Shown here: piece after piece, positions 10,151 through 46,178 of the stretch
How positions within the stretch are numbered: the stretch's first letter is position 1
Layout: every line of letters starts with the position of its first letter
Assembly: GCA_024280435.1 (NCBI GenBank)
Contig: JAJRQD010000214.1
Span: forward strand, 1 to 60,589
DNA: 60,589 bases
Origin: an archaeon
GTDB taxonomy: Archaea > Asgardarchaeota > Heimdallarchaeia > Heimdallarchaeales > Kariarchaeaceae
Direction of reading: 5' to 3'
The notes under the pieces: generated by a model
The model's input: the letters and a program-made list of their open reading frames with translations, nothing else
What the model was told of the DNA's origin: nothing
Databases searched by the model: none
Program-made: the position numbers and the translations under genes

Positions 10151-12175
10151 TTATTGGATGATCTCTCTTAAGTCACTAAGTGCTTTATTTATTGATGATT
10201 CATATTTATCAGCATCAATCTTATAATCACGCATCATTTTTTGATAAAGAGCTTTATTTATTTCCTTCTTTGAATATGATTTCCTTGCATTTAAAATATT
10301 CGTTCGGCTATCAGCGATTTTTTGGTTTGCAATCATAATTCTTGATACTAATCTTTCATACTTAGAACCCACCTTAGAAAGATCTGTAATGGCTTTATCA
10401 AGAGGAGAATTATTATCACGAATTCTCTTATTAATTGCTTTCACCTGACCAGTATATTCTCTCTGAGATAATTTATTCTTTCTTCTTTTCTCAGTCAATT
10501 CTGCAATACGATTATTTGCATCAAACTGCTCAGTGAAATATTTAATAAATGCATCAATTTCATCCATTGGGATTTTATCCTTCTCCAATTTAATTGCCTT
10601 GCTTTCTCTGAGCTGAATATTTGAGAGTGCATAAACTGCCATTAACAATAAAATCAAGGTCATGATAAATGTTAAAATATACTGTACATGTCCTAAACCA
10701 TTATACTTGTACTTAATTGTAAATTGAGTATTATCCACATATGAGGCATTAATTATTGATATTTTCATCTCTACATGATTGAAGTAGCTTAATGTACTTC
10801 TTTTTGCATAGCTTGAGATATCAACAATTGATGTACTTGATGAAGATCTAAAATCATTGCTAAGAAGTTCTGCACCTGCTGGAAATTCATAAACTGTATT
10901 CAATTCATAAACAGTAGAATTAAATGAGGAAAATAGAGTTGCATTCAGATTATAGACACCATCATTTACAGATATAATATCAGTTGCATTAATCATATAC
11001 TCTACTGTGAATGTATACTCTTCATTTCCATATATAGGATTTCTAAAATTAACTTCTAGAAAATTATAATTTGTCTGTGGATCTGAAATTGGTGTTCCAT
11101 CATCTTTTAATGCACCAACATTCAAAGATCCTTGATCATCATACAGTTCCAACACTTTAGAGTATTTATACAGTTGCATCTTAAAACCTGAAATGCGGTG
11201 AATTAAATTTAGAGAAGTAGGGTTTTCCATTCGTGGAGCACCTAAATTCCTCATTGTTAATGTTTCAGTAACATAGACAAAACCCCAAGGATCAATTTTT
11301 AATCTTCTATCAGCTTTTGGAAATACAAATCCTGCAATTGATACCAACTCATTTAGAGCAGCTTCGGGATCTGGTTTTGTTGAATCAATTACTACCTTAG
11401 TATAGTCATAATCCAATAATAATCCTTCAATAGGATCAAATGCCTCTCTTGAATAATTATACCATTCAAGAGTAGTTGCATCTTTAAGAGTAGGATAAGA
11501 ACTACCTAGATTTGTTGTTTGATTCATCTCATTCAAATTGAAACTATTACTCTTAGCACCAATTCTCATAGCAATTATACTATTTTCCAATTCTAAATTT
11601 GGGAAAATAGGTCTCACCGGTGAAATAAAACTGCTACGCTGATAGTCTTCAATACCTTCAAATGCCATTAAATTAGATGCTTGAAGAAGTGCATATATCT
11701 GGACCAACTCGGTGTTGTTCGCAAGAGTTCCATTCTCATCAATTCGTATCGAGTAGGTAGTTGCCTCTTCTCCAACAAATTTGGTATACTCTTTCTTATT
11801 ACTCTCAGCAAGAACACCTGTATTTGTTGGTGCCTGTTTAGAAAAGAACTCAGCTGTTACAACGTATTTTTCAAAGCTAGTAGGAATTGTATAATTAAAA
11901 ACGCCAATAAATGTTTGATTATCTTTAATTTCAAGAGTTATTAGATCCTCTACTGCAACACGTGCAGTTGATGTAATTGAGATATTTCTCATCACATATG
12001 TGACTGATGCATTCAAAAATCGGCTTGCTGGATGACCGGCTACATCAGTAGTCAGATTAGAGCTTTCGCTCCTTGTTGCCTCATTTGCAGTTCCTGAAAC
12101 TCCAAAACTTGGAGTTAAAGAAACAAACATCATGAGTATAAATAATACAGATAATGATTTATAATTACGTTTCAA
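10151..12175 (-). CDS. Secreted/type I membrane protein, candidate ribophorin I (OST1)-like
   Basis: Signal peptide, large ectodomain with PWGFVYVTETLTMRNLGA, one TM (VQYILTFIMTLILLLMAVYAL), cytosolic coiled coil; same order as ribophorin I. Confidence 0.55.
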   Translation of the reverse strand: MKRNYKSLSVLFILMMFVSLTPSFGVSGTANEATRSESSNLTTDVAGHPASRFLNASVTYVMRNISITSTARVAVEDLITLEIKDNQTFIGVFNYTIPTSFEKYVVTAEFFSKQAPTNTGVLAESNKKEYTKFVGEEATTYSIRIDENGTLANNTELVQIYALLQASNLMAFEGIEDYQRSSFISPVRPIFPNLELENSIIAMRIGAKSNSFNLNEMNQTTNLGSSYPTLKDATTLEWYNYSREAFDPIEGLLLDYDYTKVVIDSTKPDPEAALNELVSIAGFVFPKADRRLKIDPWGFVYVTETLTMRNLGAPRMENPTSLNLIHRISGFKMQLYKYSKVLELYDDQGSLNVGALKDDGTPISDPQTNYNFLEVNFRNPIYGNEEYTFTVEYMINATDIISVNDGVYNLNATLFSSFNSTVYELNTVYEFPAGAELLSNDFRSSSSTSIVDISSYAKRSTLSYFNHVEMKISIINASYVDNTQFTIKYKYNGLGHVQYILTFIMTLILLLMAVYALSNIQLRESKAIKLEKDKIPMDEIDAFIKYFTEQFDANNRIAELTEKRRKNKLSQREYTGQVKAINKRIRDNNSPLDKAITDLSKVGSKYERLVSRIMIANQKIADSRTNILNARKSYSKKEINKALYQKMMRDYKIDADKYESSINKALSDLREIIQ

Positions 12176-12288
12176 GTACTAAACCCTCGAATTTTAATTA
12201 GCTGTTAGCTTCAAACTCAACTTAAGTCAGATATTTAAAGTCTTTTCGAGATGGTACAGCTAATTTTTACAAAATTGAGATAGGGTGA

Positions 12289-12885
12289 TTATAGTCGTCC
12301 TAATGCCTTGACATCAATAATAATATTTTCTTGACATTTCTCACATGTTAACTTATACTCACCTTCACCTTCATTACCAAGTAATTTACGACCACACTTA
12401 CAAACCCATGCTTTTATCCTACCAGGATTACCCATAATCAAGGCATGTTCCCAAACATGTCTATTAGCTGGAACTAGTGTACCTGCTGCTACAAAAGAAT
12501 ACTTATCCAGTATACTTCCGCATACAATTGTTGAATTTGCACCAATTGATACATTATCTTTAATTTCTGTTTTTGTAATCTCCCAATCATAACCTATACG
12601 CGGATACAGATCATTTGTAAATGCCACATGGGGACCAACAAATACATTATTCCCAATTGTCACCCCACTGTACACAGAAACAAGATTTTGAATTTTTACA
12701 TTATCCCCTATTATAACATCAGAATCAACATAACTACCTTTACCAATAACTGCATTCTTTCCAATAACTGCTTTGGAACGTATATGGGCAAAATGCCAGA
12801 TATATGTTCCCTCACCAATAATCGCTCCATCTTCTACAATTGCTGTTGGGTGTATATACACGTTTTTCATTTTATTCAAATTCAT
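12289..12885 (-). CDS. Left-handed beta-helix (hexapeptide) acyltransferase, WbpD/WlbB-like
   Basis: Tandem hexapeptide repeats (IGKNAVIGKGSYVDSDVIIGDNVKIQ..) and C-terminal CxC..CxxC. Confidence 0.85.
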   Translation of the reverse strand: MNLNKMKNVYIHPTAIVEDGAIIGEGTYIWHFAHIRSKAVIGKNAVIGKGSYVDSDVIIGDNVKIQNLVSVYSGVTIGNNVFVGPHVAFTNDLYPRIGYDWEITKTEIKDNVSIGANSTIVCGSILDKYSFVAAGTLVPANRHVWEHALIMGNPGRIKAWVCKCGRKLLGNEGEGEYKLTCEKCQENIIIDVKALGRL

Positions 12886-13116
12886 GAAAGGTAAGCAATA
12901 ACATAAACAATTCGATATCCTGCATTATTATTTAAAATATAATAACCCAATATTTTCACTTTTAATTCACTCTAGAATAGATTTATTAATTATAATAAAT
13001 ATTTTTTAAAATATGAAAATATATTTTAAGAATACATTATCAATGATGCAATCTTTATTTAGATCAAAATCAATAAATTGTAATAGTCCAAAGGAATATT
13101 TGTGTAATGAGGAATT

Positions 13117-14412
13117 ATGATGAGGAAAGTACATTTTGTTCACACATCTGATTGGCATATTGGTTTTGTTCAATATGGTAAAATAGAAAGATTCAATGAT
13201 TTTTACCTTGCAGCTATGAACACTGTAAACAAAATAATCGATATTCAGCCACAGTTTGTTCTTCATACTGGAGATATTTTTCATCATCAGAAACCATCAC
13301 CAGGTGCAATTAGACAGGCTGTTAAGGTATTGAAAAAGTTGAAGGATAATAATATTCCAGTGTACATGATTAGAGGTAATCATGATGCACGTAACACTAA
13401 GGAATTACAAAGAGGTGGGAATATAATATCATTGCTTGACGATTTAGGATTAATTCAATTTATTGATGACAAAGTTATTTCAATAGATGACAACATAAAA
13501 ATTATGGGAGTGGGTTATTATACGGGCAAATCATCCGTATATAGATTAGACGACATACTAGATGATTACGATCCGAGTGATGAGACTTTTGATATACTTG
13601 CATTACATGCATACATTGAGGGGCAGCTGGAAAGAAATGTACAAATATCTATTAAAGAAATATCAGATTACAAAGTAGACTATATTGGTGTTGGCCATTA
13701 TCACATACCATGGAAAAAGCCTAAGCTGAAAATATACTGTCCTGGAAGCTCTGAAGCCACCTCATCAAACGATTGGAATAGACTTGATCTGATTGATAAA
13801 ATATCAATTTATTCAAGTTTTTTTGAGATTAAATCAGAATACATATCCAGTTGGAGTAGTCCAGAAGTAATTACACATAATATTGCTGTTAGACCTAAAA
13901 TCAATATAGTAATCAGTAGTGATACTTTAGAAATTAATACTCTTGAGAGTGAGATATTAAATGCAATACAAGAGAAAAAATCAATTATAGAGAGAAATGG
14001 TTTAGATCCGGAAAACTCAATTGTAAAATTGAGTGTTTATTCTGAGATTGACGTAGATAATTTATCTCTCTTATCAGAAACAGAGATAAAGAATAAGAGT
14101 AATATTTTTCACATGATGAGTCAGATAAATGGTAAGGAAAAATACCAAGATATTGAGATTGATAGCTTCATTGAGCAAAATCTTGAAGAAATTATACTGT
14201 CAATGTTAAAAGATGAGGATGATCCTCAAAAATTCCTTGAGATAATAATGGATATAATCAATATGTTTGGAGAAAAGAAACATAGAGAACCAAGTGAAGA
14301 AACTATCAATCTGATCATCAATAAAATGAATGAACTGGCAAATGGGAATACACTAGCTGAGGATGAGATGCGCCAACTGGTGGAAAGTGAATTTAAAGGA
14401 GGACTAAAATGA
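13117..14412 (+). CDS. mre11: DNA double-strand break repair nuclease Mre11
   Basis: HTSDWHIG, TGDIFHH, RGNHDA, GVGHYH phosphoesterase motifs; ATGA overlap with rad50. Confidence 0.92.
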   Translation: MMRKVHFVHTSDWHIGFVQYGKIERFNDFYLAAMNTVNKIIDIQPQFVLHTGDIFHHQKPSPGAIRQAVKVLKKLKDNNIPVYMIRGNHDARNTKELQRGGNIISLLDDLGLIQFIDDKVISIDDNIKIMGVGYYTGKSSVYRLDDILDDYDPSDETFDILALHAYIEGQLERNVQISIKEISDYKVDYIGVGHYHIPWKKPKLKIYCPGSSEATSSNDWNRLDLIDKISIYSSFFEIKSEYISSWSSPEVITHNIAVRPKINIVISSDTLEINTLESEILNAIQEKKSIIERNGLDPENSIVKLSVYSEIDVDNLSLLSETEIKNKSNIFHMMSQINGKEKYQDIEIDSFIEQNLEEIILSMLKDEDDPQKFLEIIMDIINMFGEKKHREPSEETINLIINKMNELANGNTLAEDEMRQLVESEFKGGLK

Positions 14413-22297: not shown

Positions 22298-22310
22298 AAA
22301 AAGGCTTCCT

Positions 22311-24958: not shown

Positions 24959-25357
24959 ATGGTCAGAATAATCCCCAAATACAATGGGGATTATTTTGAG
25001 ATTGAATTTGTGTATGATCAGGAGATAACAGTACCAGAACTGGACTATAATCATTATTTATCCCTGGATATAGGGCTAGATAATTTTGCCACTGCCGTTT
25101 CTAGCAGAGAGACTGCCTTCATACTTGAGGGACGAGGAATTAAATCATACAATTGCTGGTGGAACAAGAGAAAAGCAAAATTACAGAGTACATACGATAA
25201 ACAGGGGATCAAATGGGGTAAACAAATGAGAATTTTACAAATCAAACGATATAATGTCTTCAGAAACTTCATTGCACATATACTTTGTTCTCTGAAAGCT
25301 ATATTTTACAATTATAATACAAAATATAATATATTTCACATCAACTTTATAAAATAA
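24959..25357 (+). pseudogene. Truncated IS605/IS1341-type TnpB-like transposase remnant
   Basis: RuvC-I-like YLSLDIGLDNFATAVSS and IIPKYNGDYFEIEFVYD; lacks the N-terminus, RuvC-II/III and the zinc finger. Confidence 0.75.
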
Positions 25358-25374: not shown

Positions 25375-26325
25375 ATGTCAGAATTACCCTGGAACACTGA
25401 GCTCATGGAGGCTATTGTTTCCAATAGAGTTGATTTTCTCACACCTATATTTTTGTTTTTCACATTGATTGGTGAACTTAATGGATACATACTAGTGGTA
25501 TCAGCGCTCTACGTAACATACAACAAGAAAATAGGATATCGTCTTGCTTTAGTTGCAGCAACTTCTTCTACAATTAATCATCTGTTAAAAATAATAATTC
25601 GTAATCCAAGACCATTTGTAACAGATGGTAGCTATGTTGATAAGTGGGGCCCCATCCCCGATCCAGATACAACCGTTACTGAATTTTCCACTCCATCAGG
25701 TCATGCAATGGGTGCAGCTTCATTTTGGGGTTATCTATATTCTAAATTTAGCAATACTAAAATAAGAGCACTTTTTATATTTCTCATACTAATGATAGGG
25801 TTATCCCGACCATATTTAGGTGTACATTATGTTGAGGACATAATTCTGGGTTGGTTGATTGGTTTCTTATTAGTTTATCAAATAGTTAAAAATGAGAATA
25901 AAATTGAAAACAGTTGGAATAAATTCACATTGCTAAACAAGGTTGTCCTAACCATCACAATCTCAGTTACTATATGGGTTATTGCAGGAATAATCACTAA
26001 TTGGACACTTGATGGACAGACTTTTGCAACAAATGCTGGCTTTGTCACTGGATTCATCATTGGAAGAGAGTTAGAGCTGATCAAAATAAAATTTGACCCA
26101 AAAAGCTCACATATAGCAATCAAGCTACTACGTTTTCTAATCACTGTAATTCTCACTCTAGGCATGCTTCAAGGTCTAGATATTATTGTTGAGAATATTA
26201 CTGTGGATAACTCACCATTGGGCTTTGCATTAAGATATGTACGATATTCACTGACGGGCTTCACTGCGATATATCTCGCACCATGGGTGTTTGTAAAGAT
26301 AAAACTAGTTAATCAAGAGAAATGA
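25375..26325 (+). CDS. PAP2-superfamily membrane phosphatase
   Basis: KIIIRNPRP, TPSGHAMGA and SRPYLGVHYVEDIILGW PAP2 motifs, multiple TMs. Confidence 0.88.
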   Translation: MSELPWNTELMEAIVSNRVDFLTPIFLFFTLIGELNGYILVVSALYVTYNKKIGYRLALVAATSSTINHLLKIIIRNPRPFVTDGSYVDKWGPIPDPDTTVTEFSTPSGHAMGAASFWGYLYSKFSNTKIRALFIFLILMIGLSRPYLGVHYVEDIILGWLIGFLLVYQIVKNENKIENSWNKFTLLNKVVLTITISVTIWVIAGIITNWTLDGQTFATNAGFVTGFIIGRELELIKIKFDPKSSHIAIKLLRFLITVILTLGMLQGLDIIVENITVDNSPLGFALRYVRYSLTGFTAIYLAPWVFVKIKLVNQEK

Positions 26326-31030: not shown

Positions 31031-31048
31031 TCAATAAAACTGTTTATT

Positions 31049-31621: not shown

Positions 31622-31626
31622 TATAT

Positions 31627-33729
31627 ATGGCAATTGAAACACATGAAGAATTACTTGAGAGTTACGAGAGCTTTTTTACCAATTTCAAGGATGATAATGG
31701 AGATTACAAATATATCGATCAGATCAATAGAATGGTTAGAGATGGTAAAAGATCAATTAATATCGATTATAATGATCTAGTATTGATAGATGATATGAGA
31801 GATCTTGATCTTGCATCCACTTTGATGGAGAATCCATACTTCATGCTTGCAGCAGGTTCAGAAGCTCTTGCTCTCCATGTAAAGAATGAAAACCTAGATT
31901 ATTACAAAGAAATTCTACTTGAAAAAAATAATTTCTATGTTAGATTTCATGATACACCGTCTAGTATTAGAATCAGAGATATAAGAGCCGCACATGTGGA
32001 TACTCTGAAATGGTTAGATGGTATCGTCATAAGAACAACAGAGATCAAATCAATTATCACCAAAGCATTCTATACATGTGCAGAGGGGCATGAGCTTGAG
32101 ATAACTTTTAGTGATGGAGTATATTTCAAACCAGATAGGTGTATTAATGATGCATGCAAAGCAAAAGAATTCAATCTAGATAATCGAAGGTCAAAATTAA
32201 TTGATTGGCAATACATAACAGTACAGGAAAAACCAGAGGATCTACCACCTGGCGCCTCTCCAAAATCGATCTCATGTAGATTAACAGATGATATTGTGAA
32301 TGCAGTCAGACCTGGTGACAGGGTACATTTTGGAGGTCTCGTAAGAACCAAGGCATCAAAACAGATAAAAAAAGGTCAAGTACTTACTTTTGATTCTTGG
32401 ATTGATATCAACTATATAGAATCACTTACAAAAGATGACGACTTTCTGAACATCACTCCAGAGGAAGAAAAACACTTCATAGATATTTCAAATGATCCAA
32501 AGATACATGAACATATCATTCAATCTATTGCACCATCAATATATGGACACAACGAGGTAAAAGAGGCATCTATGTTATTATTATTTGGAGGTGTAACAAA
32601 AACATATCCTGATGGGTTCTCCACAAGAGGACAACCAAATGTATTATTAATTGGAGATCCAGGAGTTGCCAAATCACAGATGCTCAGATATGTGCAGAGT
32701 ATCGCACCTAGAGGTATATTTACCTCTGGAAAAGGGTCTTCAGCTGCTGGATTGACAGCTGCAATTGTAAGAGATCCAGATACAGGTGAGGTAACTCTTG
32801 AAGCAGGAGCTTTAGTACTTGCAGACCGAGGATTATGTCTGATTGATGAATTTGATAAGATGAGTGAGAATGATAGGTCTGCCATACATGAGGCAATGGA
32901 ACAACACACAGTATCTATCGCAAAAGCAGGAATTGTTGCCACTCTGAATGCAAGAACAGGAGTATTTGCGGCTGCAAATCCAAAATATGGAAGATATGAG
33001 ATAAATAGAACATTTAATGAAAATGTAAATCTATCTGCACCAATTCTTTCCAGATTTGATCTGATATTCACATTGAGAGATGAACCAGAAGAGGATAATG
33101 ATTCTGTAATTGCCAGTCATATTCTAAATTTACATCGTTTCCATGGAAATGCAGCCACTAATAAACCTCCAATGCAAGAGGATGAACTAAAAAAATATAT
33201 TGCATATGCAAAGAAGAACTATCATCCAGTGCTATCAGAGGAAGCAGTAGAATTAATAGAAAATTATTATGTATCAATGAGAAGCGCATATGGTAAATCA
33301 TCTGCAGATGGGAAACAGGGTGATAGGGTGACAATCACTGCAAGGCAATTAGAAGGTATAATTAGGCTATCAGAGGCTAGAGCTAGAGCTGCATTGAGAA
33401 GTGTTGTTACAAAGATGGATGCACAGAAAGCAATTGATCTTGTTAAATTCAGTCTATCACAGATAGCAATTGATCCAGAAACAGGTGCACAGGATATTGA
33501 TGCTCTGTATTCTGGTAGTACAGGCACCAAAAGAAATAAGCTCAACAAATTACTTAGCTTGATTGATTTTCTTTATAAGCAGAACAATGGCCCATTCAAA
33601 GAGGAAGAGCTAATTAATGAAGCCGAAAGGGAAGGTTTAGCCAAAGACTATGTAATTGGAGTATTGACTTCAATGAGACGAGATGGTACACTGTATGAAC
33701 CCCGTCCAGGTATGATTGATAAACCATAA
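31627..33729 (+). CDS. mcm: MCM replicative helicase
   Basis: GDPGVAKSQ, DEFDKM, LSRFDL MCM motifs; start MAIETHEELL preferred over 31543. Confidence 0.95.
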   Translation: MAIETHEELLESYESFFTNFKDDNGDYKYIDQINRMVRDGKRSINIDYNDLVLIDDMRDLDLASTLMENPYFMLAAGSEALALHVKNENLDYYKEILLEKNNFYVRFHDTPSSIRIRDIRAAHVDTLKWLDGIVIRTTEIKSIITKAFYTCAEGHELEITFSDGVYFKPDRCINDACKAKEFNLDNRRSKLIDWQYITVQEKPEDLPPGASPKSISCRLTDDIVNAVRPGDRVHFGGLVRTKASKQIKKGQVLTFDSWIDINYIESLTKDDDFLNITPEEEKHFIDISNDPKIHEHIIQSIAPSIYGHNEVKEASMLLLFGGVTKTYPDGFSTRGQPNVLLIGDPGVAKSQMLRYVQSIAPRGIFTSGKGSSAAGLTAAIVRDPDTGEVTLEAGALVLADRGLCLIDEFDKMSENDRSAIHEAMEQHTVSIAKAGIVATLNARTGVFAAANPKYGRYEINRTFNENVNLSAPILSRFDLIFTLRDEPEEDNDSVIASHILNLHRFHGNAATNKPPMQEDELKKYIAYAKKNYHPVLSEEAVELIENYYVSMRSAYGKSSADGKQGDRVTITARQLEGIIRLSEARARAALRSVVTKMDAQKAIDLVKFSLSQIAIDPETGAQDIDALYSGSTGTKRNKLNKLLSLIDFLYKQNNGPFKEEELINEAEREGLAKDYVIGVLTSMRRDGTLYEPRPGMIDKP

Positions 33730-33799
33730 TTCAGTTTTAAAACACTCTAAGATACTTTTATATGTTATACTTATTCCTATTAATTTGCAAGGTGTGATT

Positions 33800-36013
33800 G
33801 TGAAAATAGAAGATCTGAAATTTGATGAGAGATTAAAAACTAAATTAATTAATGACGGTATATATGAATTATACCCACCTCAAGCTGAAGCTGTTGAAAA
33901 AGGACTGCTTGAAAGTGTAAATCAAGTGGTTGCAATTCCAACAGCATCAGGTAAAACATTAATTGCTATAATGGCGATTTTTTCATCTCTTTTAAAAAAT
34001 GGTGGAAAAGCTATTTATCTTGCACCATTAAGAGCACTTGCATCTGAAAAATATACTGAATTCAAAGAATTTGCAGATCTTGTGGGATTATCAGTTGCTA
34101 TTTCAACAGGAGACCTTGATGAACAGTCTGGATGGATCAAAAATGCCAACATAATAATAGCAACCAATGAGAAATTTGATTCAATAATTAGACATCAGGT
34201 AGATTGGTTGAATGATATTAGAGTCGTAGTCTCTGATGAGGTTCACCTAATTAATGATGCTAGCAGGGGTCCTGTACTGGAGGTAGTTTTATCATTGATA
34301 AGAAGAAATCTACCTGAATGCCAAATAATCGCTTTATCTGCCACAATTAATAATGCAGATGAGATTGCAGAATGGCTGGAAGCGGAGCTGATACTTTCTA
34401 CTTGGAGACCTGTTGATCTGAAAGAAGGTGTCTGGGAAAACGGAACTGTGACCTATGCAAATGGAAAGAAAAAGCAACTAGGTGATCCCAGGGATAAAAC
34501 AGGCTATATATCGCTCACAACAGATATGATTTCACAGAATGGACAGGTACTTGTTTTTGCCAATACCCGAAAATCCACTGTGAAAACAGCTATGGATTTG
34601 AAAAGTAAGGTTAAATCATTGATTAATAACAATCAACTTGGTAAATTGAGAGAGATAGCCAATCAGATTAGATCCACCGGTGAAAAAACTGAATTAAGAA
34701 CTAAATTAGCAGAGGTTGTTGAATGTGGAGTGGCTTTTCATCATGCAGGTTTGGTTTCTAGACACAGAAAAATCGTGGAGCAAGCATTTAAAGATAGAAT
34801 TATTAAAGTAATAACAGCATCTCCCACATTAGCAGCAGGTGTCAATATACCAGGTAGAAGAGTGGTGATTAGAAACGTCACAAGATACTCACAAGGATAT
34901 ATTCAGCCAATTCCAGTTCTAGAATACAAACAGATGGCGGGAAGAGCAGGAAGACCACAGTATGATCCTTATGGAGAAGCAATCATACTTGCTAAAAATA
35001 GTAGCGAGAAAAATCAGTACTTGGATCGTTTTGTGAGAGCAGACACCGAACTCATATATTCAAAACTAGGCACAGAACCTGCCATGAGATCACATATATT
35101 ATCATTTATTGCTTCAGAATATGTGAATGATTTTGACACTGCAATGGATATGATTGCAAATACATTTTATGGATATCAGAATGAAGATGCACTTTTTCTT
35201 GTTGAGGAGGAAATATTCAAAGTATTTGAAATATTAACAGAATCAAAATTAATTTCTAAAGATGAACCTTATCAGATAACACCCTTTGGAAAGAGAGTGA
35301 ATGAGCTGTATCTTGACCCATTATCTGCCAGACTGATTAAAGTAGGTCTTGAAGAGAGTATAGATCGAGACAAACTTGCAGATATTATTTATCTACAATT
35401 GCTTTCAAATACACCAGATCTAAGATCTTACTCTGTTAGACAGAAAGAAATGGATATTCTAATCGATACATACAATAAATATGAGGATGATTGGATAAAT
35501 ATCAATCATGAGACAGACTATGAAGAAGATATTTTTTTCAGCTCTTTAAAAATTGCAAAAACACTTGATATGTGGCTAAATGAAAAAAGTGAGGAGGAAA
35601 TTAATAACACATTTGGAATCGCTTCAGGAGACTTGCATTCACTATTGAACAGAATGGCATGGTTAGTTCACTCTGCAAATGAGATTGCAAGAATTTTTGA
35701 TTGGAAATATCATAAAAAAGCATTATCAAGGATCAATAAACGGATTAAATATGGCATCAGAGCAGATTTGCTACCCTTGGTAGAGCTATCAAATGTTGGT
35801 AGAGTTCGCGCAAGAACATTATACGATGCAGGATACACCAATATTGAGAAAATTAAGAATGCAGACGAGAAACAACTGGCAAAATTACAGGGAATAGGAG
35901 CAAGACTCGCTAAATTAATAATAGATAATTTAACTGTTGATGATACAAATGATACTTTTATCGAGAATATTCCTGATAAAACGCAAACTACTCTTGATGC
36001 ATTTTTTGAATGA
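33800..36013 (+). CDS. Hel308/Ski2-like DEAD-box DNA helicase
   Basis: PTASGKT, DEVH, SATINN, QMAGRAGRPQ; C-terminal HhH; GTG start (VKIEDL) with aaggtg upstream preferred over 33716. Confidence 0.93.
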   Translation: MKIEDLKFDERLKTKLINDGIYELYPPQAEAVEKGLLESVNQVVAIPTASGKTLIAIMAIFSSLLKNGGKAIYLAPLRALASEKYTEFKEFADLVGLSVAISTGDLDEQSGWIKNANIIIATNEKFDSIIRHQVDWLNDIRVVVSDEVHLINDASRGPVLEVVLSLIRRNLPECQIIALSATINNADEIAEWLEAELILSTWRPVDLKEGVWENGTVTYANGKKKQLGDPRDKTGYISLTTDMISQNGQVLVFANTRKSTVKTAMDLKSKVKSLINNNQLGKLREIANQIRSTGEKTELRTKLAEVVECGVAFHHAGLVSRHRKIVEQAFKDRIIKVITASPTLAAGVNIPGRRVVIRNVTRYSQGYIQPIPVLEYKQMAGRAGRPQYDPYGEAIILAKNSSEKNQYLDRFVRADTELIYSKLGTEPAMRSHILSFIASEYVNDFDTAMDMIANTFYGYQNEDALFLVEEEIFKVFEILTESKLISKDEPYQITPFGKRVNELYLDPLSARLIKVGLEESIDRDKLADIIYLQLLSNTPDLRSYSVRQKEMDILIDTYNKYEDDWININHETDYEEDIFFSSLKIAKTLDMWLNEKSEEEINNTFGIASGDLHSLLNRMAWLVHSANEIARIFDWKYHKKALSRINKRIKYGIRADLLPLVELSNVGRVRARTLYDAGYTNIEKIKNADEKQLAKLQGIGARLAKLIIDNLTVDDTNDTFIENIPDKTQTTLDAFFE

Positions 36014-36087
36014 AATTTGATTAACATTCATAATTTAATGTAATCTTCAATAGCATCCTTTTTGATTTGCTATTTTATTAATAATAT

Positions 36088-37104
36088 GTGCTTCATGTTT
36101 ATACCCATCCAAATTCATTATTACATGTTATGGGACCGGAACATCTTGAATCTCCTGAAAGAATAACAATTATTGAAAAAGCTCTTAAAGAGGCTTCATT
36201 CAAGAGTAAATTCATAGAAGCAAGAAGAGCAACTGATGAAGAAATTTTAACAGTGCATTCACAAGGATATCTTGATACAATGTACCGATCAACAGGTATA
36301 GCAAGAATAAAAATGACAGAAGACACCAGTACGAACATGTTCACTCTTGATGCAGCACTCACATCAGCAGGTGGAGGTATACAAATGGTTGAGAACTCAA
36401 AACACAACCATGGTTTTTCACTATTAAGACCGCCTGGTCATCATGCAACTCAGAATGCAGCAATGGGATTTTGTTTTTTCAACAATATTGCAATTGCAGC
36501 AAATGCAATTAGAGATAAATACAAAAAAATTTTGATACTTGATATAGATCAACACTTTGGAAATGGAACTGCAGATATTTTCAAAGATGATCCGGATGTA
36601 CTTTATATGAGTTTACATGCAGATCCACAGATATCATACCCAGGTACAGGATTTGCCAGTAATGTGGGTATCAAAGAGGGGTTGGGTAAAACGGTCAACA
36701 TATCATTACCATGGAAATTAAAAGATAGTGACTATCTTGTAGCTCTAGATGAGATTGCAATTCCAATATCAGAGCAGTTCAATCCAGATATTATACTCTT
36801 ATCTTTGGGTGTGGATGGCTTGGAAGATGATCCATATGGTCATTTATCATTAACCACAGATGTATACTATGAAATCGGTAGGAGAATAGGAGATTTCAAT
36901 AAAAGAAACACAAATAACAAGGTACCTACTTTTTTTGAGGGAGGGTACAAATATGATCTACTTGGAGAGGCAACAGTCAAGTTTTTTGAGGGATTATTGA
37001 ATCCGGATGGTGAAGAAAGAATCAAAGCAGAATTAACCCCAAAATTCAGTTATCAATTGAGAAAAATCAAATCGATCCAAAGAAAACATTGGATAGGAAT
37101 ATAG
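36088..37104 (+). CDS. Histone deacetylase/AcuC-family deacetylase
   Basis: RPPGHHA, DIDQHFGNGT, LSLGVDGLEDDPYG zinc-dependent deacetylase motifs. Confidence 0.92.
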   Translation: MLHVYTHPNSLLHVMGPEHLESPERITIIEKALKEASFKSKFIEARRATDEEILTVHSQGYLDTMYRSTGIARIKMTEDTSTNMFTLDAALTSAGGGIQMVENSKHNHGFSLLRPPGHHATQNAAMGFCFFNNIAIAANAIRDKYKKILILDIDQHFGNGTADIFKDDPDVLYMSLHADPQISYPGTGFASNVGIKEGLGKTVNISLPWKLKDSDYLVALDEIAIPISEQFNPDIILLSLGVDGLEDDPYGHLSLTTDVYYEIGRRIGDFNKRNTNNKVPTFFEGGYKYDLLGEATVKFFEGLLNPDGEERIKAELTPKFSYQLRKIKSIQRKHWIGI

Positions 37105-37150
37105 ATAATAAGACATGAATTCAATGAATTATTTTTAAAAAGAATATTGG

Positions 37151-37843
37151 ATGTTAATTATGGACGAATATTTTTTCAGTAATGCAGTAATTGGACCTGT
37201 GAGTACGAATTGTTTTATTTTTGGGAAAAAAAGTGAAGCAATAATGTTGGATCCAGGAGGGCCTGAAGTGCTACAAATTGTGAAACAGTTGAGTAAAAAG
37301 GGTATCGAGATTAAGCATATCATAGCAACTCATGGACATTTTGATCATATAAGTTGGGCATCAGATGTTATTAAAGAATGCAGAAATGCAAAACTCTATC
37401 TCAGTGAGGCTGAAAAAGTGTATTATGAAGATTATCATAATTGGATGGTTAGATATGGTATCACACCACCAGAAATTGCTAAACCAGATATATGGTTCAA
37501 AGACAATGAAATACTAGATATAGGTGGATTACGTATTGAAGTAATACATACTCCAGGTCATACACCAGGATCATCTGTAATATATATTGAAAAATTCATA
37601 AATGGGAATGATACTGTTAAAGTTGCATTTGTTGGAGATTTATTGTTCAAGGGATCAGTTGGCCGGGTAGATTTTCCATATAGTAATGCAGATGATATGA
37701 AACTATCTTTGGAAAGAATAATTGAAGAGCTTGATGATGATGTATTAATTTATTCAGGACATGGTGAGAGTACAACTATGTTATCAGAAAAGAATGCAAA
37801 CCCATATTTATTGGCAATACAGAAAGGAATACCTATTTTTTGA
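37151..37843 (+). CDS. MBL-fold hydrolase (glyoxalase II-like)
   Basis: ATHGHFDH, HTPGHTPGSS, GDLLF, GHGEST. Confidence 0.9.
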   Translation: MLIMDEYFFSNAVIGPVSTNCFIFGKKSEAIMLDPGGPEVLQIVKQLSKKGIEIKHIIATHGHFDHISWASDVIKECRNAKLYLSEAEKVYYEDYHNWMVRYGITPPEIAKPDIWFKDNEILDIGGLRIEVIHTPGHTPGSSVIYIEKFINGNDTVKVAFVGDLLFKGSVGRVDFPYSNADDMKLSLERIIEELDDDVLIYSGHGESTTMLSEKNANPYLLAIQKGIPIF

Positions 37844-37856
37844 TTATTTCAAATAA

Positions 37857-38972
37857 TTAAGTCTTTCTTCTTTTATTCTTCTTCTTTTTATTTGCTTTTG
37901 ATTTGTCTTTCTTTGGTTTCTCGGGCAATGGTTTTCCAATTGCAAAGAAATTTGAGATTGAAAGTTTACCTTGATACCACAATGAACCAAACCAAAGGAT
38001 AATTAATAAAATACCAATTCCGAGTGCTACAAATATATTATATGTAATAAACCATGATACTTCTTGATTGACAATTTCATTCACCTCAGGTAGTGGTGTG
38101 ATATGTAATAACCAAGCAATTAAATTCTGGAATAACTTTAAGTTATCTTCCTGATCAATCCAATTAGAAGTACTATTATAAGCATATTCTGAAAACATTG
38201 TGGTTGATCCAAGTAGCATAGCCCTACCTTTGGTTGAGAATTCTTTTGCTTCCATCCATCTTGGAGATTTTAAATTCAATTCAGAAGATAATGCATCATC
38301 ATAATTTTGATTTATCGCATATGAGTACTCTGAAGCATTACCATACATCTCAGTAGTAGGATTTTTTGGAGAAACTATTGCAGAGTAGAGTAGAAATTTA
38401 GATTGAGTCAAGTTATTTACCTCAGTTCTAAATACATCTGTCTCCAAATTATCAGCTCCAATATAGACATTAGTTTCATTTCCATTATTATTGAATTCAT
38501 CAACAATTATAGTAGTGTTGTCAATGTCAACAGTACCTGTACTCATGGTAACACCAATATCTGCAAATATTAACTGGTTCATTGTTTCTGCATGTCCTGC
38601 AAGAGATGAATTATAGCTAAAAGGATTGCTCATGTACAATACACCAGTTCCTTTTGATACAAAGTCTTTAATCGCATCAGATTCTCCATCTAAAGCCTCT
38701 GAATCAACTCCGGGATTACTAACAATCAAAAGATCTGCACCTTGAAGACTTGTTGTTGTGAATTTATCAGTATTTACTTTGATCGTTATCTGTACACCCA
38801 ATGCATCTGACAAGCTGTCAAAAGCAGTACTCATCATATCAGATGTGAAAAATTGATCGTGTGATTCATCATACAAAATGATGTAGCCCTTCTCAATTCC
38901 CTGAGCACTAGCAGGCAGGGAAATTGACAATAATAGTAATGATAGGAGGAAATAGTGTTTAAATTTCATCTT
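37857..38972 (-). CDS. Type I membrane protein with GATase1/GIFT-like ectodomain; candidate OST48/WBP1-like
   Basis: Signal peptide (MKFKHYFLLSLLLLSISLPASAQG), DLLIVSNPGVDSE.., RAMLLGSTTMFSEYAYN..NLIAWLL, single C-terminal TM, Lys-rich tail. Track gives 39035. Confidence 0.45.
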   Translation of the reverse strand, partial: KMKFKHYFLLSLLLLSISLPASAQGIEKGYIILYDESHDQFFTSDMMSTAFDSLSDALGVQITIKVNTDKFTTTSLQGADLLIVSNPGVDSEALDGESDAIKDFVSKGTGVLYMSNPFSYNSSLAGHAETMNQLIFADIGVTMSTGTVDIDNTTIIVDEFNNNGNETNVYIGADNLETDVFRTEVNNLTQSKFLLYSAIVSPKNPTTEMYGNASEYSYAINQNYDDALSSELNLKSPRWMEAKEFSTKGRAMLLGSTTMFSEYAYNSTSNWIDQEDNLKLFQNLIAWLLHITPLPEVNEIVNQEVSWFITYNIFVALGIGILLIILWFGSLWYQGKLSISNFFAIGKPLPEKPKKDKSKANKKKKNKRRKT

Positions 38973-39104
38973 AGTATCCCGTATATTCTCACGAAAATTA
39001 AAATTATTTAAAATAATGACGATATTATACTCCAAAATAGTAAGATTGACCAGATATTTTAACTTATATACATAAAGAGTGGTTGTACCACCATAATTTT
39101 AAAA

Positions 39105-39536: not shown

Positions 39537-40686
39537 AAATTAAAACATTGACAAATTGTCCAGATTGTCCAACATTGTGTGATAATCCTCTTACTGCACC
39601 ATCAACCTGTCTTTCAGATTCTACCTCGCCTAACAGTTGTTTTCTTATTTCAACTGCCTGACTGACTCCAGTTGCACCTAATGGATGTCCCTTGGCTTTT
39701 AATCCACCATCCACATTGATTGGTATTTTACCATCATGGTATGTTTGTTTATCAAGTACTGCTTGTCCAGCTTCTCCTTTCTTGTAGAAACCAAGATCTT
39801 CCATAGCAATTAATTCTGCAATGGTGAAACAATCATGTACAGTTGCTAAATTTATATCAGCAGCAGTAACTCCAGCCATAGCATATGCCTCTTTTGCAGC
39901 TCTCTGTGCACCTTTCAATTCAGTCAGAGATTCTCTCTGTGCCATCATCATAGTATCAGTTCCCTGTCCAATACCTTTGATAGATATGGGAGTATCTGTG
40001 AATTTTTTGGCAATACTATCTTTTGTCAGAAGAACAGCAGCAGCACCATCAGAAATCAGTGAACAATCATACAGATTAAGAGGTGATGCAATATCAATTG
40101 CACCCATAGCTTCCTCAAGGGATACTTCTTTTCTAATATGAGCCAATTTATTTTTAGATGCATAATAATGATTTTTTACACCTATTGAACTTAATATCTC
40201 ACGTGTAGTGCCATATTCGGCCATATGTGCAGATGCAATCAGAGCATAATATCCAGGAAAAGATACACCAAATGGGAATTCCCAACGGAGATCACCGGCT
40301 CTGGCCATTAGTTCTGTTGCCTCTCCGGAGCTGATCGATGTCATCTTCTCAGCACCAACAACAAGTACAGCATCTCTTAATCCAGATTTAATCATATTAT
40401 ATGCAGAGATTATTCCTGCTGTTCCAGTTGCACATGCACTCTCAACTCTGATTGTTGGTAATCCATGTAACCCAAGTTCTGTATTGATAACTGCTGCTGG
40501 TGAACCCTGGCCATTGAAACCATCTCCAGCCACTCCAATCACAGTTGCATCAATGTCACTTTTACTGACATTTGTTGTGTTAAATAAATCTCTTACCGCT
40601 TCATGAGCAAGATCTCTAAGTCCTGATTCTTTTCGCTTACCGAAAACAGCATGACCGCCGCCTACGATTGAAACTCCTTCAGACAT
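39517..40686 (-). CDS. Thiolase-family acyl-CoA acetyltransferase (SCP-x type)
   Basis: VESACATGTAG active Cys, CFTIAE, GGLKAKGHPLGATG. Confidence 0.92.
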   Translation of the reverse strand: MSEGVSIVGGGHAVFGKRKESGLRDLAHEAVRDLFNTTNVSKSDIDATVIGVAGDGFNGQGSPAAVINTELGLHGLPTIRVESACATGTAGIISAYNMIKSGLRDAVLVVGAEKMTSISSGEATELMARAGDLRWEFPFGVSFPGYYALIASAHMAEYGTTREILSSIGVKNHYYASKNKLAHIRKEVSLEEAMGAIDIASPLNLYDCSLISDGAAAVLLTKDSIAKKFTDTPISIKGIGQGTDTMMMAQRESLTELKGAQRAAKEAYAMAGVTAADINLATVHDCFTIAELIAMEDLGFYKKGEAGQAVLDKQTYHDGKIPINVDGGLKAKGHPLGATGVSQAVEIRKQLLGEVESERQVDGAVRGLSHNVGQSGQFVNVLIYERSDL

Positions 40687-40858
40687 TTTAATCCTCTAAA
40701 GATCATTAGAGATGAATTTAATATATACTTTGCGGGATGTTAATTATAAATTTAATAAAATTTATTAGATTTCTCTACTTACTAGTTGATAGATGAAAAA
40801 TAACCCAACAAGAACTAATGAGTTATAATAGAGAAAAGATATTGTTTGTTAAACAGAT

Positions 40859-41761
40859 TTAATTACTCTGATTTAATAAGTTATTATCAACAAATTTTCT
40901 TATGCATTCAAAATATTCTGCCTGTTCAGGTATATTTGAATGATCTGCATTTTCAAAAATACAGAGAGTTGAGTGCTTAATCACTTTGTGCAAATCCTCA
41001 CTAAAAGTAGATGGTAAAAGATCATCAAGTTTTCCATGAATTAGCAGTGTTGGAATGCTTATTCTCTCTGCATTAATAATAGGGCTGTAACCCTGTGATC
41101 GATATCTGAAGAACACAACAGATATTGCAAATCTTAATCCAATAATAAAAAACGGTGTAAATTTTTTAAATAAAGGTTGATATATTGCGTTCAAATCCTT
41201 TGGGATTGCCCTTACAGGTGCTTCTGCAACAACTGCACGAATTAGGAGATTATCCCTACCAGCAACTAGAATAGATGCTCCACCTCCAATTGAATGTCCA
41301 AGTATAATTACAGGTCTACCCCACCATTTAACAATATCATCTATATCATGTGAGAATTTCACTATACTCATACCAATTCTCTCCCTGCTTGAGTTGCCAT
41401 GATTTCTTACAGAAAACAATATTGTGGTGAAACCAAGTTTACCCCATTGTCTTGCTCTTGCAGTCATACGATCCCGATTGCGTCCCCAACCATGTGTAAG
41501 AACCACAGCAGGGATATTTTTTGCCACCTCATGTTTATCAGCTGTGGATAGATCAGTCCCATCTGGATAAACCACCCAGCATTCAATACTAGCATTTGTA
41601 TGCGTAGTTATTATATGATCTTCCAACACACCCCAGTCTGGAACATCATCAACAGGCCTTCTTGGACCTTTGGCAAGTAAAATGGTTAATAAAAATGTGA
41701 GCACAAAATAAATTATTACAGTAAGTACAATATAGTATAATATTGTAAAAAGTACATTCAT
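40859..41761 (-). CDS. Membrane-anchored alpha/beta hydrolase
   Basis: N-terminal TM, LTHGWGRNRD oxyanion motif, GHSIGG nucleophile elbow, HGKLDD, ADHSN. Confidence 0.88.
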   Translation of the reverse strand: MNVLFTILYYIVLTVIIYFVLTFLLTILLAKGPRRPVDDVPDWGVLEDHIITTHTNASIECWVVYPDGTDLSTADKHEVAKNIPAVVLTHGWGRNRDRMTARARQWGKLGFTTILFSVRNHGNSSRERIGMSIVKFSHDIDDIVKWWGRPVIILGHSIGGGASILVAGRDNLLIRAVVAEAPVRAIPKDLNAIYQPLFKKFTPFFIIGLRFAISVVFFRYRSQGYSPIINAERISIPTLLIHGKLDDLLPSTFSEDLHKVIKHSTLCIFENADHSNIPEQAEYFECIRKFVDNNLLNQSN

Positions 41762-41811
41762 ATATTTGTCAAGACTATATTTTATTATAATTATTATGTA
41801 GATTTGATGTT

Positions 41812-42918
41812 TTATAGTGGATCAACTGTGATTATTGGTCCTTTTTCAATTGGGTGTCTTGATACTATCTCTGCCTGAATATCAGGGATAGATACTCGTA
41901 TCTCATTAATTATTGATACAACCACATAATCAGCAGTCTCAACTGATAAATCATCTACAAAGACCTCCATAAAATCACCCTCAACTTCAAATTCATCCAA
42001 TAAATCCAATAGTTGTGAGAACTCTTCCTCAGTATGCACTACAAACCTTCCATATTCCAAAAGCCCCTCATCGGATACATTGTCAAATTCTCTTTTCACT
42101 TGGTTTGCACGTTTGATGAATCTCTGTACCAACTGAATTGAATCCTTGGATCCAGAACTACAAAAATGCAGACTAATATTTGTATTCTCACGAACACTAT
42201 TTATCACTGATAGGGCTGTATCTTCAGAGCCAATAATTGCCGCATTGGTAAGTACTGATACAAAGCCCCTCTGACTTAATTTATTAAAGTTTGATTCTGT
42301 GAACTCATATTCATTTAAGTTTACAAAATTTAGCCCATTTTTATCTGCAAATTCAATGAGTGCAATTAAATCTGCTTCTCTTCCAGATATTGCAGGTATC
42401 TCAAATCCAATGCTTTTATGAGGAAATCTCTTTTTTGTCCTTGCTGCAATTTCCCAGACAATCTTAGTTTTGAGATTACGGGGATGAAATCTCAATTCAT
42501 CCAATCCAACTTCAAATAACTTATCAATCAATTCTTCATTATCAATGAAAAATTTGCCAGATGTGTAAAGATGTAAATGATAATCAGTACCGAATTTAGC
42601 TCGAATTGATCTGATATAGTTCAATGTTCTTTCAGGTACCTCCATTGGGTCTCCACCAGTTATACCTGCACCAGTAGCTTTACAAAGGTCAGACTCATCA
42701 AATATCGTATCAATACCATCTATTACTCTCTCATTTACAAAAGTATCATCTATCTTCTGTTTATCTTCAGGTATAGGACAATAAACACAACCAACAGAAC
42801 ATGAACCTGTTGTGTAAAGAACAATTTTCTCACCCCTGATACAGCGAATACAGCCTTCTGGTAATTGTCCAACCTTAATACTTGATGATGGCCCATATTT
42901 GATGACAGTTCGATCCAT
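41812..42918 (-). CDS. Radical SAM protein of unknown specificity
   Basis: CSVGCVYCP (CX3CX2C) cluster motif, GITGGDPMEVPERT. Confidence 0.85.
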   Translation of the reverse strand: MDRTVIKYGPSSSIKVGQLPEGCIRCIRGEKIVLYTTGSCSVGCVYCPIPEDKQKIDDTFVNERVIDGIDTIFDESDLCKATGAGITGGDPMEVPERTLNYIRSIRAKFGTDYHLHLYTSGKFFIDNEELIDKLFEVGLDELRFHPRNLKTKIVWEIAARTKKRFPHKSIGFEIPAISGREADLIALIEFADKNGLNFVNLNEYEFTESNFNKLSQRGFVSVLTNAAIIGSEDTALSVINSVRENTNISLHFCSSGSKDSIQLVQRFIKRANQVKREFDNVSDEGLLEYGRFVVHTEEEFSQLLDLLDEFEVEGDFMEVFVDDLSVETADYVVVSIINEIRVSIPDIQAEIVSRHPIEKGPIITVDPL

Positions 42919-42962
42919 ATTTTGATTTATGATTTGTAGATTTTTAACTATGCTATACCTGT

Positions 42963-43787
42963 TCAGAATAATTTTATCTCTGATAGAATATTACTGGAAT
43001 AAATGAATGCAAATATGTTCAGAATTACAAGCATACCCCATACAAGAACATTCCAAGATAATATTTTTTTACCATCTAACAAAGAAATTGGTATCAGATT
43101 GAACAATGCAAAAAATGCATTGATATAAATACCTAATTTCAATATCTGAACAAAGGTGACACCTAGTATAATGAACTCAGGAACTATCAAAATAAGTACA
43201 TAGAGAAGTACTGAAATCAGAAAATTCATCGCAGGCCCTGCTGCTGCAAAAATTCCATTCTCTCTTTTAGATGATGTACCCATTATCATAGTTGCACCCG
43301 GACCTGCAATTCCAAATCCAATAACTGCAACCACTACTGTTAGAATAGTCATTTGTCGTATAAGAGTGAAACGTGCATATTTACCAAAATAAATTGCTGT
43401 GTATTTATGCGATAATTCATGCAAAATAAATGCAGGTGCAATAATTAATGTAAGAATAATTGCAGTATATAATCCCTGACCACCTGATAATAAAGGTCTT
43501 AATCCAAATACAAGGAATAAAAGAGAAGATGCAATTATAAGATCAAGACTCTCTTTTCCAGTGGTCAAAACCTCTGGATTTGCCCTTAAATACTGTTCGT
43601 ACTCTTTTTTAGTTGGTTGCCTCTCTCTATACTGATATTTATTCTGTAAATCCATGAAATATGATCTCTGATCCATATCTGAACAGATATGGCCCTCAAC
43701 ATGTTCTTTACAAAAATACTTGTTGCAGATATTGCATCTCAGTACCATCTGATGATTTATTGAAGGGTCACAAATTGTACATTTCAC
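42963..43787 (-). CDS. AN1-like zinc finger fused to M50 site-2-protease-like membrane peptidase
   Basis: N-terminal CxxC..CxxC..CKEH..H..C; HELSHKYTA and LIPISLLDGKKIL M50 motifs. Confidence 0.85.
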   Translation of the reverse strand: MKCTICDPSINHQMVLRCNICNKYFCKEHVEGHICSDMDQRSYFMDLQNKYQYRERQPTKKEYEQYLRANPEVLTTGKESLDLIIASSLLFLVFGLRPLLSGGQGLYTAIILTLIIAPAFILHELSHKYTAIYFGKYARFTLIRQMTILTVVVAVIGFGIAGPGATMIMGTSSKRENGIFAAAGPAMNFLISVLLYVLILIVPEFIILGVTFVQILKLGIYINAFFALFNLIPISLLDGKKILSWNVLVWGMLVILNIFAFIYSSNILSEIKLF

Positions 43788-43898
43788 AATTTATCTGAAA
43801 TTAGTCATATTAATTAAACTATACATTGGATTTGAAATTATTTCTATCTGAATTTAATATTAAATTTTTATTTGGTTTAAATAATCATTCTAAATATT

Positions 43899-46178
43899 TT
43901 ATGCATCTTCATTTGCAGCTGCTATTGCATCAGCCTGTAAATTCATTTGTATCCATTCATTGAATACATTAACTCTTAGATCAATATCTGCTGGATAATT
44001 CACTTTGAAGATTCTAATGATAGGATAATCATATCTCTGTGTTTCAGTTGCAACACCAATGGATCTGAATACCTCTGTGAAGAAATCTAGACTATCAACC
44101 TGATTTGCTCTTAGATCTGGTGCTAACTGTGTATTGCTATCTGCAAATGGAGGCCTCTCAGCTGCTTCAGCAGTCATATCAGGAGCATGATAAGCCATCA
44201 GTCTAAACAATACGCTATCATAGAATTTGTCCACATAGGAATTTGTATCCTCATCATAATAATGATCAGCATTTACACGATATTCCTTGGCATATTGTTC
44301 TGCAATTCTAATCATCCAAATTGCTTTACCAAGATCAGATCCAAGACCAGTATAGCCACCAGCAGGTACTACCATTACATAATCAACATTATATTTGTAC
44401 ATCAGTGGAAGTGCCATACTCTCATTATACATGAGCATTGCACCAACAGAGGCGATCTGAGTTGAATTAGAAGTAGCATTATCTGCAAGTGTGATCGTAT
44501 CTCCTTTCGCTGTGATATAGTAACCGTAATCCCACCATGATAACATCACAGGTGCTGCAATATTATTCTCATAGCCTTTGAAGTCATTCTCAGATGTATG
44601 ATCATAGTATGATGTTTCTCGTTGCATCCATTCAAATGCATCGGGCCAATCTGTGTAAGCTTCATTTGGATTTCTTCCAGGTGTCAACTCAGGCTGTGAA
44701 AAACGATCTACCGCAGTAGTAACACCGGAAGATAGCATTATTATCAATAATAAGAATACTGTGAAATATGCTCTTGCAGCATCCCCTGAGCCAATACTCT
44801 TCTTAGACATAGTTCTTTTGGTTAGTTTTATTCTACCATGACCTGCTAGTGCATATGGTTTTAATAGTGCATCAATTGCTAATGCAGATAACAAAGCAGC
44901 AGCAGGTGCAAGTAATAACATCAAACGTACCATTGAACCGCTGAATAAAATGGTTGTAACACCAAAGGTTGCAATGAATACATTTTTCTCAGTTGGTTTT
45001 TTCATTGCATAATATACACCCAATGGCATGAAGAATACAAGAATTGATAGATTTGAATAAAGATTTCCCCATGCAAGTGGTAGATGTTCTGATACTGAAT
45101 CAATCAATGGAAGGCTATTACGAGAAGCAGGTAAAAGTACGGAGATAAATTTATCACCGATACCCTGTACAATTCCTGTAAGCAGTAATGCAAGGAATAT
45201 TCCTCCAAGAACCAAAACGATTGCTGCAAAAGAATATACAATAAATCTTCTGAAAGCAGCAGGATTTAGTATTTCAGATATATGTTGCATGAGGCCAAAC
45301 AGAACCAGAAATGCAATAAATGCAACGGGAGCAATACCCTCTGTTTCAAGCAAGAATGAACCGCCGATACGAGGAATAGTAATCATTATCATTGTTGCTA
45401 CACTGATGGTGACTGTGTACACTTTTAACAATCTTGTTGAATAGTTTCCAGATATTACCATAACCAATGCAAAAACAGGTAACAGATCATAGGCAAATCT
45501 GAATGCACCCCATGAGCCACCTAACATTGCCAATGATAAACCTGCAAATATAGCAGATCTATTGCTATCTCTTGTCAAAGCACGTACAAAGAAGTAGAAT
45601 GTCATGATTGTAAATAGAACACCAACAGATTCATTATCTGTAAAACCTGCAATAGATCTTGATAGATAAGCTGGTGATACAACCATTATTATAGCTGCAA
45701 ATAAACCTGCTCTTTTAGAAATTAATTCTTTAGCAAATAGATATGTAAAGTACACTCCAATTGTACCAAAAATTACAGGTGTTAGATATGCGGCAAATTC
45801 AAGTGTAATTGAAAAACCAAAAAATGTGATTATCTTAAATACAAGTACCATAGCGATCGGTACTGCTAGATACATTGATGTACCCATTGCACGTCCATAA
45901 GGATACCATGATAATGAATCATGCCACAATAGGAAATTGAATAATCCATGTTCAAGGATATATTCCCCTGCTCTGACCTGCATATGTGGATCAAAGGCTT
46001 TTATTAGTGGATCCCAACCCTGCATCAATGCTACTAAACGTATAAAGAAAGCAGTTACAAGGATCAATGTTAATGTTATACTATGGAAAACGCTGGACTT
46101 GGTGATTTCATAATCTTCCATGTGGTTCTTAATTTTATAAGATACACGTTCCATAATTTCTTCGAATTCAGGTGCCAT
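43899..46178 (-). CDS. Oligosaccharyltransferase catalytic subunit STT3/AglB
   Basis: Polytopic GT-C protein with DPHMQVRAGEY, SRSIAGFTDNES and WWDYGYYIT motifs. Confidence 0.93.
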   Translation of the reverse strand: MAPEFEEIMERVSYKIKNHMEDYEITKSSVFHSITLTLILVTAFFIRLVALMQGWDPLIKAFDPHMQVRAGEYILEHGLFNFLLWHDSLSWYPYGRAMGTSMYLAVPIAMVLVFKIITFFGFSITLEFAAYLTPVIFGTIGVYFTYLFAKELISKRAGLFAAIIMVVSPAYLSRSIAGFTDNESVGVLFTIMTFYFFVRALTRDSNRSAIFAGLSLAMLGGSWGAFRFAYDLLPVFALVMVISGNYSTRLLKVYTVTISVATMIMITIPRIGGSFLLETEGIAPVAFIAFLVLFGLMQHISEILNPAAFRRFIVYSFAAIVLVLGGIFLALLLTGIVQGIGDKFISVLLPASRNSLPLIDSVSEHLPLAWGNLYSNLSILVFFMPLGVYYAMKKPTEKNVFIATFGVTTILFSGSMVRLMLLLAPAAALLSALAIDALLKPYALAGHGRIKLTKRTMSKKSIGSGDAARAYFTVFLLLIIMLSSGVTTAVDRFSQPELTPGRNPNEAYTDWPDAFEWMQRETSYYDHTSENDFKGYENNIAAPVMLSWWDYGYYITAKGDTITLADNATSNSTQIASVGAMLMYNESMALPLMYKYNVDYVMVVPAGGYTGLGSDLGKAIWMIRIAEQYAKEYRVNADHYYDEDTNSYVDKFYDSVLFRLMAYHAPDMTAEAAERPPFADSNTQLAPDLRANQVDSLDFFTEVFRSIGVATETQRYDYPIIRIFKVNYPADIDLRVNVFNEWIQMNLQADAIAAANEDA

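Follow-up and report, generated by a model that had tools for sequence, protein, structure and literature searches.

Probable STT3 and Ost1 subunits of an Asgard oligosaccharyltransferase on one contig with a GIFT-domain paralogue of OST48/WBP1

Whether an archaeon encodes a multi-subunit oligosaccharyltransferase (OST) of the eukaryotic kind, with an OST48 subunit beside the catalytic STT3, is the question raised by contig JAJRQD010000214.1 of an Asgard archaeon of the family Kariarchaeaceae (assembly GCA_024280435.1). The contig was analysed over its whole length of 60,589 nucleotides and is referred to here as the window; it is contig C248 of a host genome of 4.03 Mb in 342 contigs, ~84% complete. 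A preliminary description had proposed three open reading frames (ORFs) as STT3, ribophorin I (Ost1) and OST48, with their strand unstated. All three were found to be real, long and conserved ORFs on the minus strand; the first two assignments stood, but the third did not. The window very probably encodes STT3 and Ost1 of an Asgard multi-subunit OST, plus a GIFT-domain paralogue of OST48/WBP1, designated P0003 (the product of ORF 37857-38969). The family of P0003 is termed family A and the WBP1/OST48-type family is termed family B (alignments A2-A5); the two surfaced when relatives were searched with OST48_N and with P0003. Families of related genomes are given f-numbers, loci L-numbers and contigs C-numbers. 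Pfam matches were read against the curated cut-offs of 36 bits for OST48_N (PF03345), 27.2 for IFT52_GIFT (PF23355), 25 for Ribophorin_I (PF04597) and 27 for OST3_OST6. Feature coordinates are collected in Table 1.

Glycan transfer is catalysed by STT3, with Ost1 and WBP1 as accessory subunits. The STT3 of the window matched its GT-C family and carries the motifs SVSEH (residue 361) and WWDYG (548), a NATSNST double sequon (567) and the DxxK motif SDLGKAIWMIRI (614). In a search of PDB sequences it matched human STT3A at 5.8e-87 (aligned 30-681), while the sole archaeal chain found was 3vu0 at 5.7e-4, so that eukaryotic STT3 was strikingly closer. No second STT3 was found in the host genome. 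These matches and motifs, with the Pfam assignment in Table 1, bear out the earlier STT3 call. A double sequon has been noted in Asgard and TACK AglB (PMC8993221).

The Ost1 ORF scored 45.7 bits against Ribophorin_I, over profile positions 33-436 of 437. Its product is predicted to have a signal peptide, a large two-part luminal ectodomain, one transmembrane segment (TM, 500-518) and a ~155-residue cytosolic helical domain; segments 8-26 and 500-518 were the only hydropathic ones, and the ectodomain motif IDPWGxxxVxE...NLG is kept across the family alignment. The single sequence matched yeast Ost1 at 4.7e-4, and a profile of 14 Asgard Ost1 members (A7) matched human RPN1 at 4.6e-38 and yeast Ost1 at 1.5e-20 in the PDB. 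The same profile matched the cytosolic domain of MK-D1 Ost1 (8WHN) at 4.7e-36, covering 8WHN 13-160; used as a single-sequence query the cytosolic domain gave no match, the relationship being detected by the family profile alone. The MK-D1 domain binds ribosomes (PMC11417166), and the profile match indicates that the cytosolic part of the window Ost1 is this same domain. The ribophorin I call thus holds in the order proposed, with its signal peptide, two-part ectodomain and motif, one TM and a cytosolic helical domain. Ost1 is single-copy in the host genome; sampling 99 genomes across the phylum recovered its family in 44, against 0 of 14 control genomes. The window Ost1 agrees with the published Asgard Ost1 (MK-D1 WP_147663064, 8WHN; PMC11417166, PMC10307638) in its family, in the order of its domains and in having the cytosolic helical domain; it is a new member, only ~15-23% identical to other Asgard members in the alignment.

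For the third ORF the best start was the ATG at 38969 (MKFKHYF), one codon off the end coordinate of 38972 given before. P0003 has a predicted signal peptide, one GIFT domain (~25-290), a TM spanning 312-330 and a basic tail of 40 residues, 15 of them K/R, and contains 0 cysteines. It shares with OST48/WBP1 (PF03345; human 6s7o_G, yeast 6c26_B) the signal peptide, the luminal GIFT domain, the single C-terminal TM with short cytosolic tail, and type I topology. To that extent the OST48/WBP1 order earlier read from this ORF is correct, but Wbp1 has two luminal domains (PMC7226087), and the second, a beta-sandwich, is absent from P0003: the GIFT domain leads straight into the TM, and the AlphaFold2 model (pLDDT 86) contains none. 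On its own P0003 scored 31.6 bits against IFT52_GIFT, over the cut-off, and 15.3 bits against OST48_N, under it, the sub-threshold OST48_N alignment spanning positions 65-245. In the PDB, the profile of 47 family A members reached 1.2e-7 with IFT52 and 0.035 with OST48. The best PDB fold for the P0003 model was the IFT52 GIFT domain (3.0e-12, TM-score 0.77 on the target), with human OST48 close behind (2.6e-11, GIFT part alone matched). A tree built from 66 GIFT rows separated family A as a clade of its own (SH-aLRT 97) and placed human OST48 with family B (support 81).

A WBP1-type gene was found elsewhere in the host genome, at G000:C192:32679-34388. The earlier WBP1-type profile A2 had given weak matches alone there; the family B profile A3, from the window's own order, then found this gene at E 8.4e-106. 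Its 605-aa product has a predicted signal peptide, an extra N-terminal domain, a GIFT domain, a beta domain and a TM. The lead member of family B scored 41.5 bits against OST48_N, over the cut-off, and in the family a beta-sandwich region is modelled between the GIFT domain and the TM. The top folds for the family B model were human OST48 and yeast Wbp1 (5.1e-11, 430-460 columns, 448 for the best match), and IFT52 came behind them at 1.1e-5 over the GIFT domain only. Short and long forms of family B matched each other over their full length (profile match 8.1e-36, 383 columns), while families A and B matched over the GIFT domain only (4.4e-16, 235 columns). The WBP1-type domain order and the full-length fold match to OST48 were seen in the short form of the family, and the C192 copy is tied to them by the family profile. 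In Hodarchaeota the family B gene lies ~5 kb from Ost1, which supports family B as an OST subunit. The C192 gene is the better OST48 candidate of this organism and lies outside the window.

P0003 could still be a true OST48/WBP1 that has lost its second luminal domain and is complexed with STT3 and Ost1. Its OST48-like topology, the GIFT fold match to human OST48, the sub-threshold OST48_N alignment and the proximity of family A to an OST3-like gene in relatives all point that way. However, family B with the full domain order is present in its own genome and through the class, families A and B coexist, and OST48 is placed with family B in the tree; this explanation is largely refuted and very improbable. 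The OST48 identity of the ORF is given up for the missing second luminal domain, the score under the OST48_N cut-off, the clade of its own and the WBP1-type gene on C192, and P0003 is regarded as a GIFT-domain paralogue of OST48/WBP1 and not OST48 itself.

P0003 was also considered as an orthologue of IFT52, whose N-terminal GIFT domain (PF23355; 5fms, 5fmr) gave its best sequence and fold match and shares the motif GS..MFSD. IFT52 itself acts in the cytosol, in intraflagellar transport, and has additional domains. Unlike it, P0003 is predicted to be secreted and membrane-anchored, with a signal peptide and a TM, and its chain stops at the end of the basic tail, where IFT52 has C-terminal domains that bind intraflagellar transport complex B (IFT-B). 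The orthology was rejected on two counts: the topology differs, and IFT52 receives a still better score from the WBP1-type profile than from that of P0003's family.

Several findings weigh against the assignments preferred here. GIFT domains cross-match generally, and the WBP1-type profile also scores IFT52 well; single E-values for IFT52 against OST48 therefore do not discriminate. The C192 product alone reaches no OST48 Pfam model, being divergent, and for this reason its assignment rests on its family. Confidence in the WBP1-type model is low (pLDDT 60, TM-scores ~0.36). The grouping of OST48 with family B is weakly supported (81, where 95 is the mark), and OST48 sits on a long branch. Finally, the OST genes do not lie together in the host genome but on three or more contigs.

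A third reading takes P0003 as a GldG/DUF4350-type accessory of an ABC transporter or envelope system. In its favour, ABC_transp_aux matched 25 of the 47 family members (best 3.3e-7) and DUF4350 matched 8. The preliminary description had named a better match to unrelated DUF4350/GldG-like proteins as a refuting outcome for this ORF; a better match to another protein was indeed obtained, so that this outcome came about in part, but it was the IFT52 GIFT domain, with the GIFT domain of OST48 close behind in fold. IFT52 and OST48 gave the best PDB profile and fold matches, and no ABC transporter genes lie beside P0003 within the window, the neighbours in relatives having been clustered and annotated in part. 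GldG usually has N- and C-terminal TMs, unlike the signal peptide and one C-terminal TM of P0003. This reading was judged improbable.

Of 148 genomes drawn from the whole phylum, 102 had family A, mostly at full length and with one main copy per genome; the weaker matches in some families are to other GIFT proteins. Family B was limited to the class of the window plus f17, f22 and f24, most remaining matches being partial and GIFT-only. WBP1 was published as restricted to Heimdallarchaeia including Njordarchaeales (Eme et al. 2023; PMC10307638), that is, from the same broad group, and this distribution fits family B, not the pan-Asgard family A; judged by distribution, family B probably corresponds to that WBP1. 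Families A and B adjoin in six genomes of f22 and f24, each gene scoring clearly with its own profile, and since they stand side by side, neither is a truncated version of its neighbour.

This adjacency, the distribution across the phylum and the single main copy favour P0003 as a previously undescribed extra subunit associated with OST or with the lipid-linked oligosaccharide (LLO), alongside WBP1. So do other neighbours in related genomes: in 19 f4 genomes family A lies ~2-3 kb from an OST3-like gene (6.7 kb in another), in f3, f14 and f16 it adjoins family-2 glycosyltransferase genes (PF00535), and in f5, f14 and f16 it is near a polyprenol-kinase-like lipid kinase, a call that is weak (CTP_transf_1, 0.033, below cut-off). 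However, the neighbourhood also holds genes named by sequence reading as PolD, RPA-like, Hel308-like helicase and Elf1-like, as well as ribosomal genes, so that conserved, perhaps ancestral, gene order alone may explain the linkage to OST genes. The adjacency of A and B may be a relic of tandem duplication, the context counts are drawn from related genomes, and in the window's own family no linkage to OST genes was seen within a few kb. The extra-subunit explanation was held to be possible but doubtful. P0003 may instead be a cell-surface GIFT protein unrelated to N-glycosylation, with a role such as binding glycans at the surface or regulating a protease. GIFT domains are carried by many secreted proteins of Asgards, subtilases among them, and in one relative a GIFT-region subtilase is the next gene on the same strand, but the recurrence of WBP1-type, OST3-like and glycosyltransferase genes nearby speaks against it; it was given a little less than an even chance.

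As to the remaining OST subunits, an Ost3-like gene is present in the host genome on C182 (L145:1654-2133; OST3_OST6, 30.2 bits). Neither DAD1/Ost2 nor ribophorin II/Swp1 was matched in the host genome (threshold E <= 0.01), and across 54 genomes no match rose above the cut-off; because Eme et al. relied on methods for distant homology (PMC10307638), the negative is taken as a limit of sensitivity and not as proof of absence. In Hodarchaeota genomes a conserved 105-aa multi-TM protein is encoded between Ost1 and the WBP1-type gene (L122:10395-10709; L123-L130). It looked DAD1-like by eye and was tried as DAD1/Ost2, for which Pfam and PDB searches gave no support.

Family identities, domain orders and gene positions come directly from the computations; beyond these we infer a physical OST complex, and a function for the GIFT protein, as follows. 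On the outer side of the cell membrane, STT3 would transfer a glycan from its lipid carrier to the asparagines of N-x-S/T sites, and Ost1 would frame the active site and dock the ribosome-translocon through its cytosolic helical domain; the Ost3-like (C182) and WBP1-type (C192) subunits would be supplied from elsewhere in the genome. P0003, anchored by one TM, would most likely be an outward-facing binding platform for a glycan, perhaps a lipid-linked glycan, or for another surface ligand. GIFT domains have been proposed as sugar binders and Wbp1 has been proposed to recruit LLO (PMC7226087). A direct role of P0003 with OST or its lipid-linked glycan is possible but doubtful, an unrelated surface role being the likelier, and it is unlikely that family A is a pan-Asgard OST-associated GIFT subunit of greater age or wider spread than Asgard WBP1.

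A eukaryote-like multi-subunit OST in Asgards bears on the origin of the translocon-glycosylation machine of the endoplasmic reticulum (ER), and this part is already published: the multi-subunit OST has been described, as have both STT3 and Ost1 (PMC10307638, PMC11417166). The STT3 and Ost1 of the window are new members of these published Asgard families, and the remaining novelty is family A; among the papers searched, with their mentions of Asgard WBP1 included, none describes it and none names both Asgard and IFT52. The contribution made here is a correction, namely that Asgards have two distinct families of GIFT type I membrane proteins which can readily be mistaken for 'OST48', the complete OST48 domain order being found in one of the two only. 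Family A, present across most of the phylum and lying next to the WBP1-type gene in some lineages, offers a candidate for a lost OST partner that can be tested. If it is OST-associated, the ancestral Asgard OST would have had two GIFT membrane subunits, of which eukaryotes kept WBP1/OST48 alone.

Table 1. Coordinates of the features assigned in the window
Feature	Position	Strand	Product	Pfam match
STT3 / AglB, catalytic oligosaccharyltransferase subunit	43899..46178	-	759 aa	PF02516, 4.6e-49
Ribophorin I / Ost1	10151..12175	-	674 aa	PF04597, 6.7e-12
Family A GIFT-domain type I membrane protein (P0003)	37857..38969	-	370 aa	
PAP2-superfamily membrane phosphatase	25375..26325	+	316 aa	PF01569, 1.3e-20
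M50-family metallopeptidase	42963..43787			PF02163, 2.9e-9
Truncated IS200/IS605 OrfB-like (TnpB-type) fragment	24959..25357			

The PAP2 gene had been proposed to recycle a lipid-pyrophosphate carrier. The gene itself is real (Table 1), but no link to OST was found, and the carrier-recycling role was dropped; the NCBIfam model for the undecaprenyl-diphosphatase SepP gave 49 bits, far under its cut-off of 250. Adjoining this gene is a short ORF which, on reading, resembles a truncated IS200/IS605 OrfB fragment. Directly downstream of STT3 lies an M50-family metallopeptidase with an N-terminal zinc-finger-like region. The order helicase, histone deacetylase (HDAC)-like, metallo-beta-lactamase-like and family A (window 33716-38969) recurs in the same genus (L089) and in a sister genus (L090).

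Further GIFT and WBP1-type proteins were observed in these genomes. The extra N-terminal domain of the C192 product is carried by WBP1-type proteins of the window's order and also occurs as a free-standing secreted protein on C328 of the host genome (loci for this observation, L164:3899-5713 and L165:3120-3887); by reading it appears CBM9/DOMON-type, which is unconfirmed. WBP1-type proteins of f6 (L003, L007, L010, L015) are ~585 aa, and Cupredoxin_1 matched 4 of the 10 A2 members (best 5.9e-6), most likely these four through an extra N-terminal region. Subtilisin-like secreted proteases with a GIFT domain are encoded at L111:2624-5491 (G000:C262, host genome) and at L061:1777-5604 (in a relative, right after the family A gene), and their architecture resembles that of the eukaryotic site-one protease (S1P). 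GIFT proteins of f8 (L213:4359-5264 and similar loci), ~300-320 aa, start directly at the GIFT domain with no obvious signal peptide, a layout nearer IFT52 than OST48.

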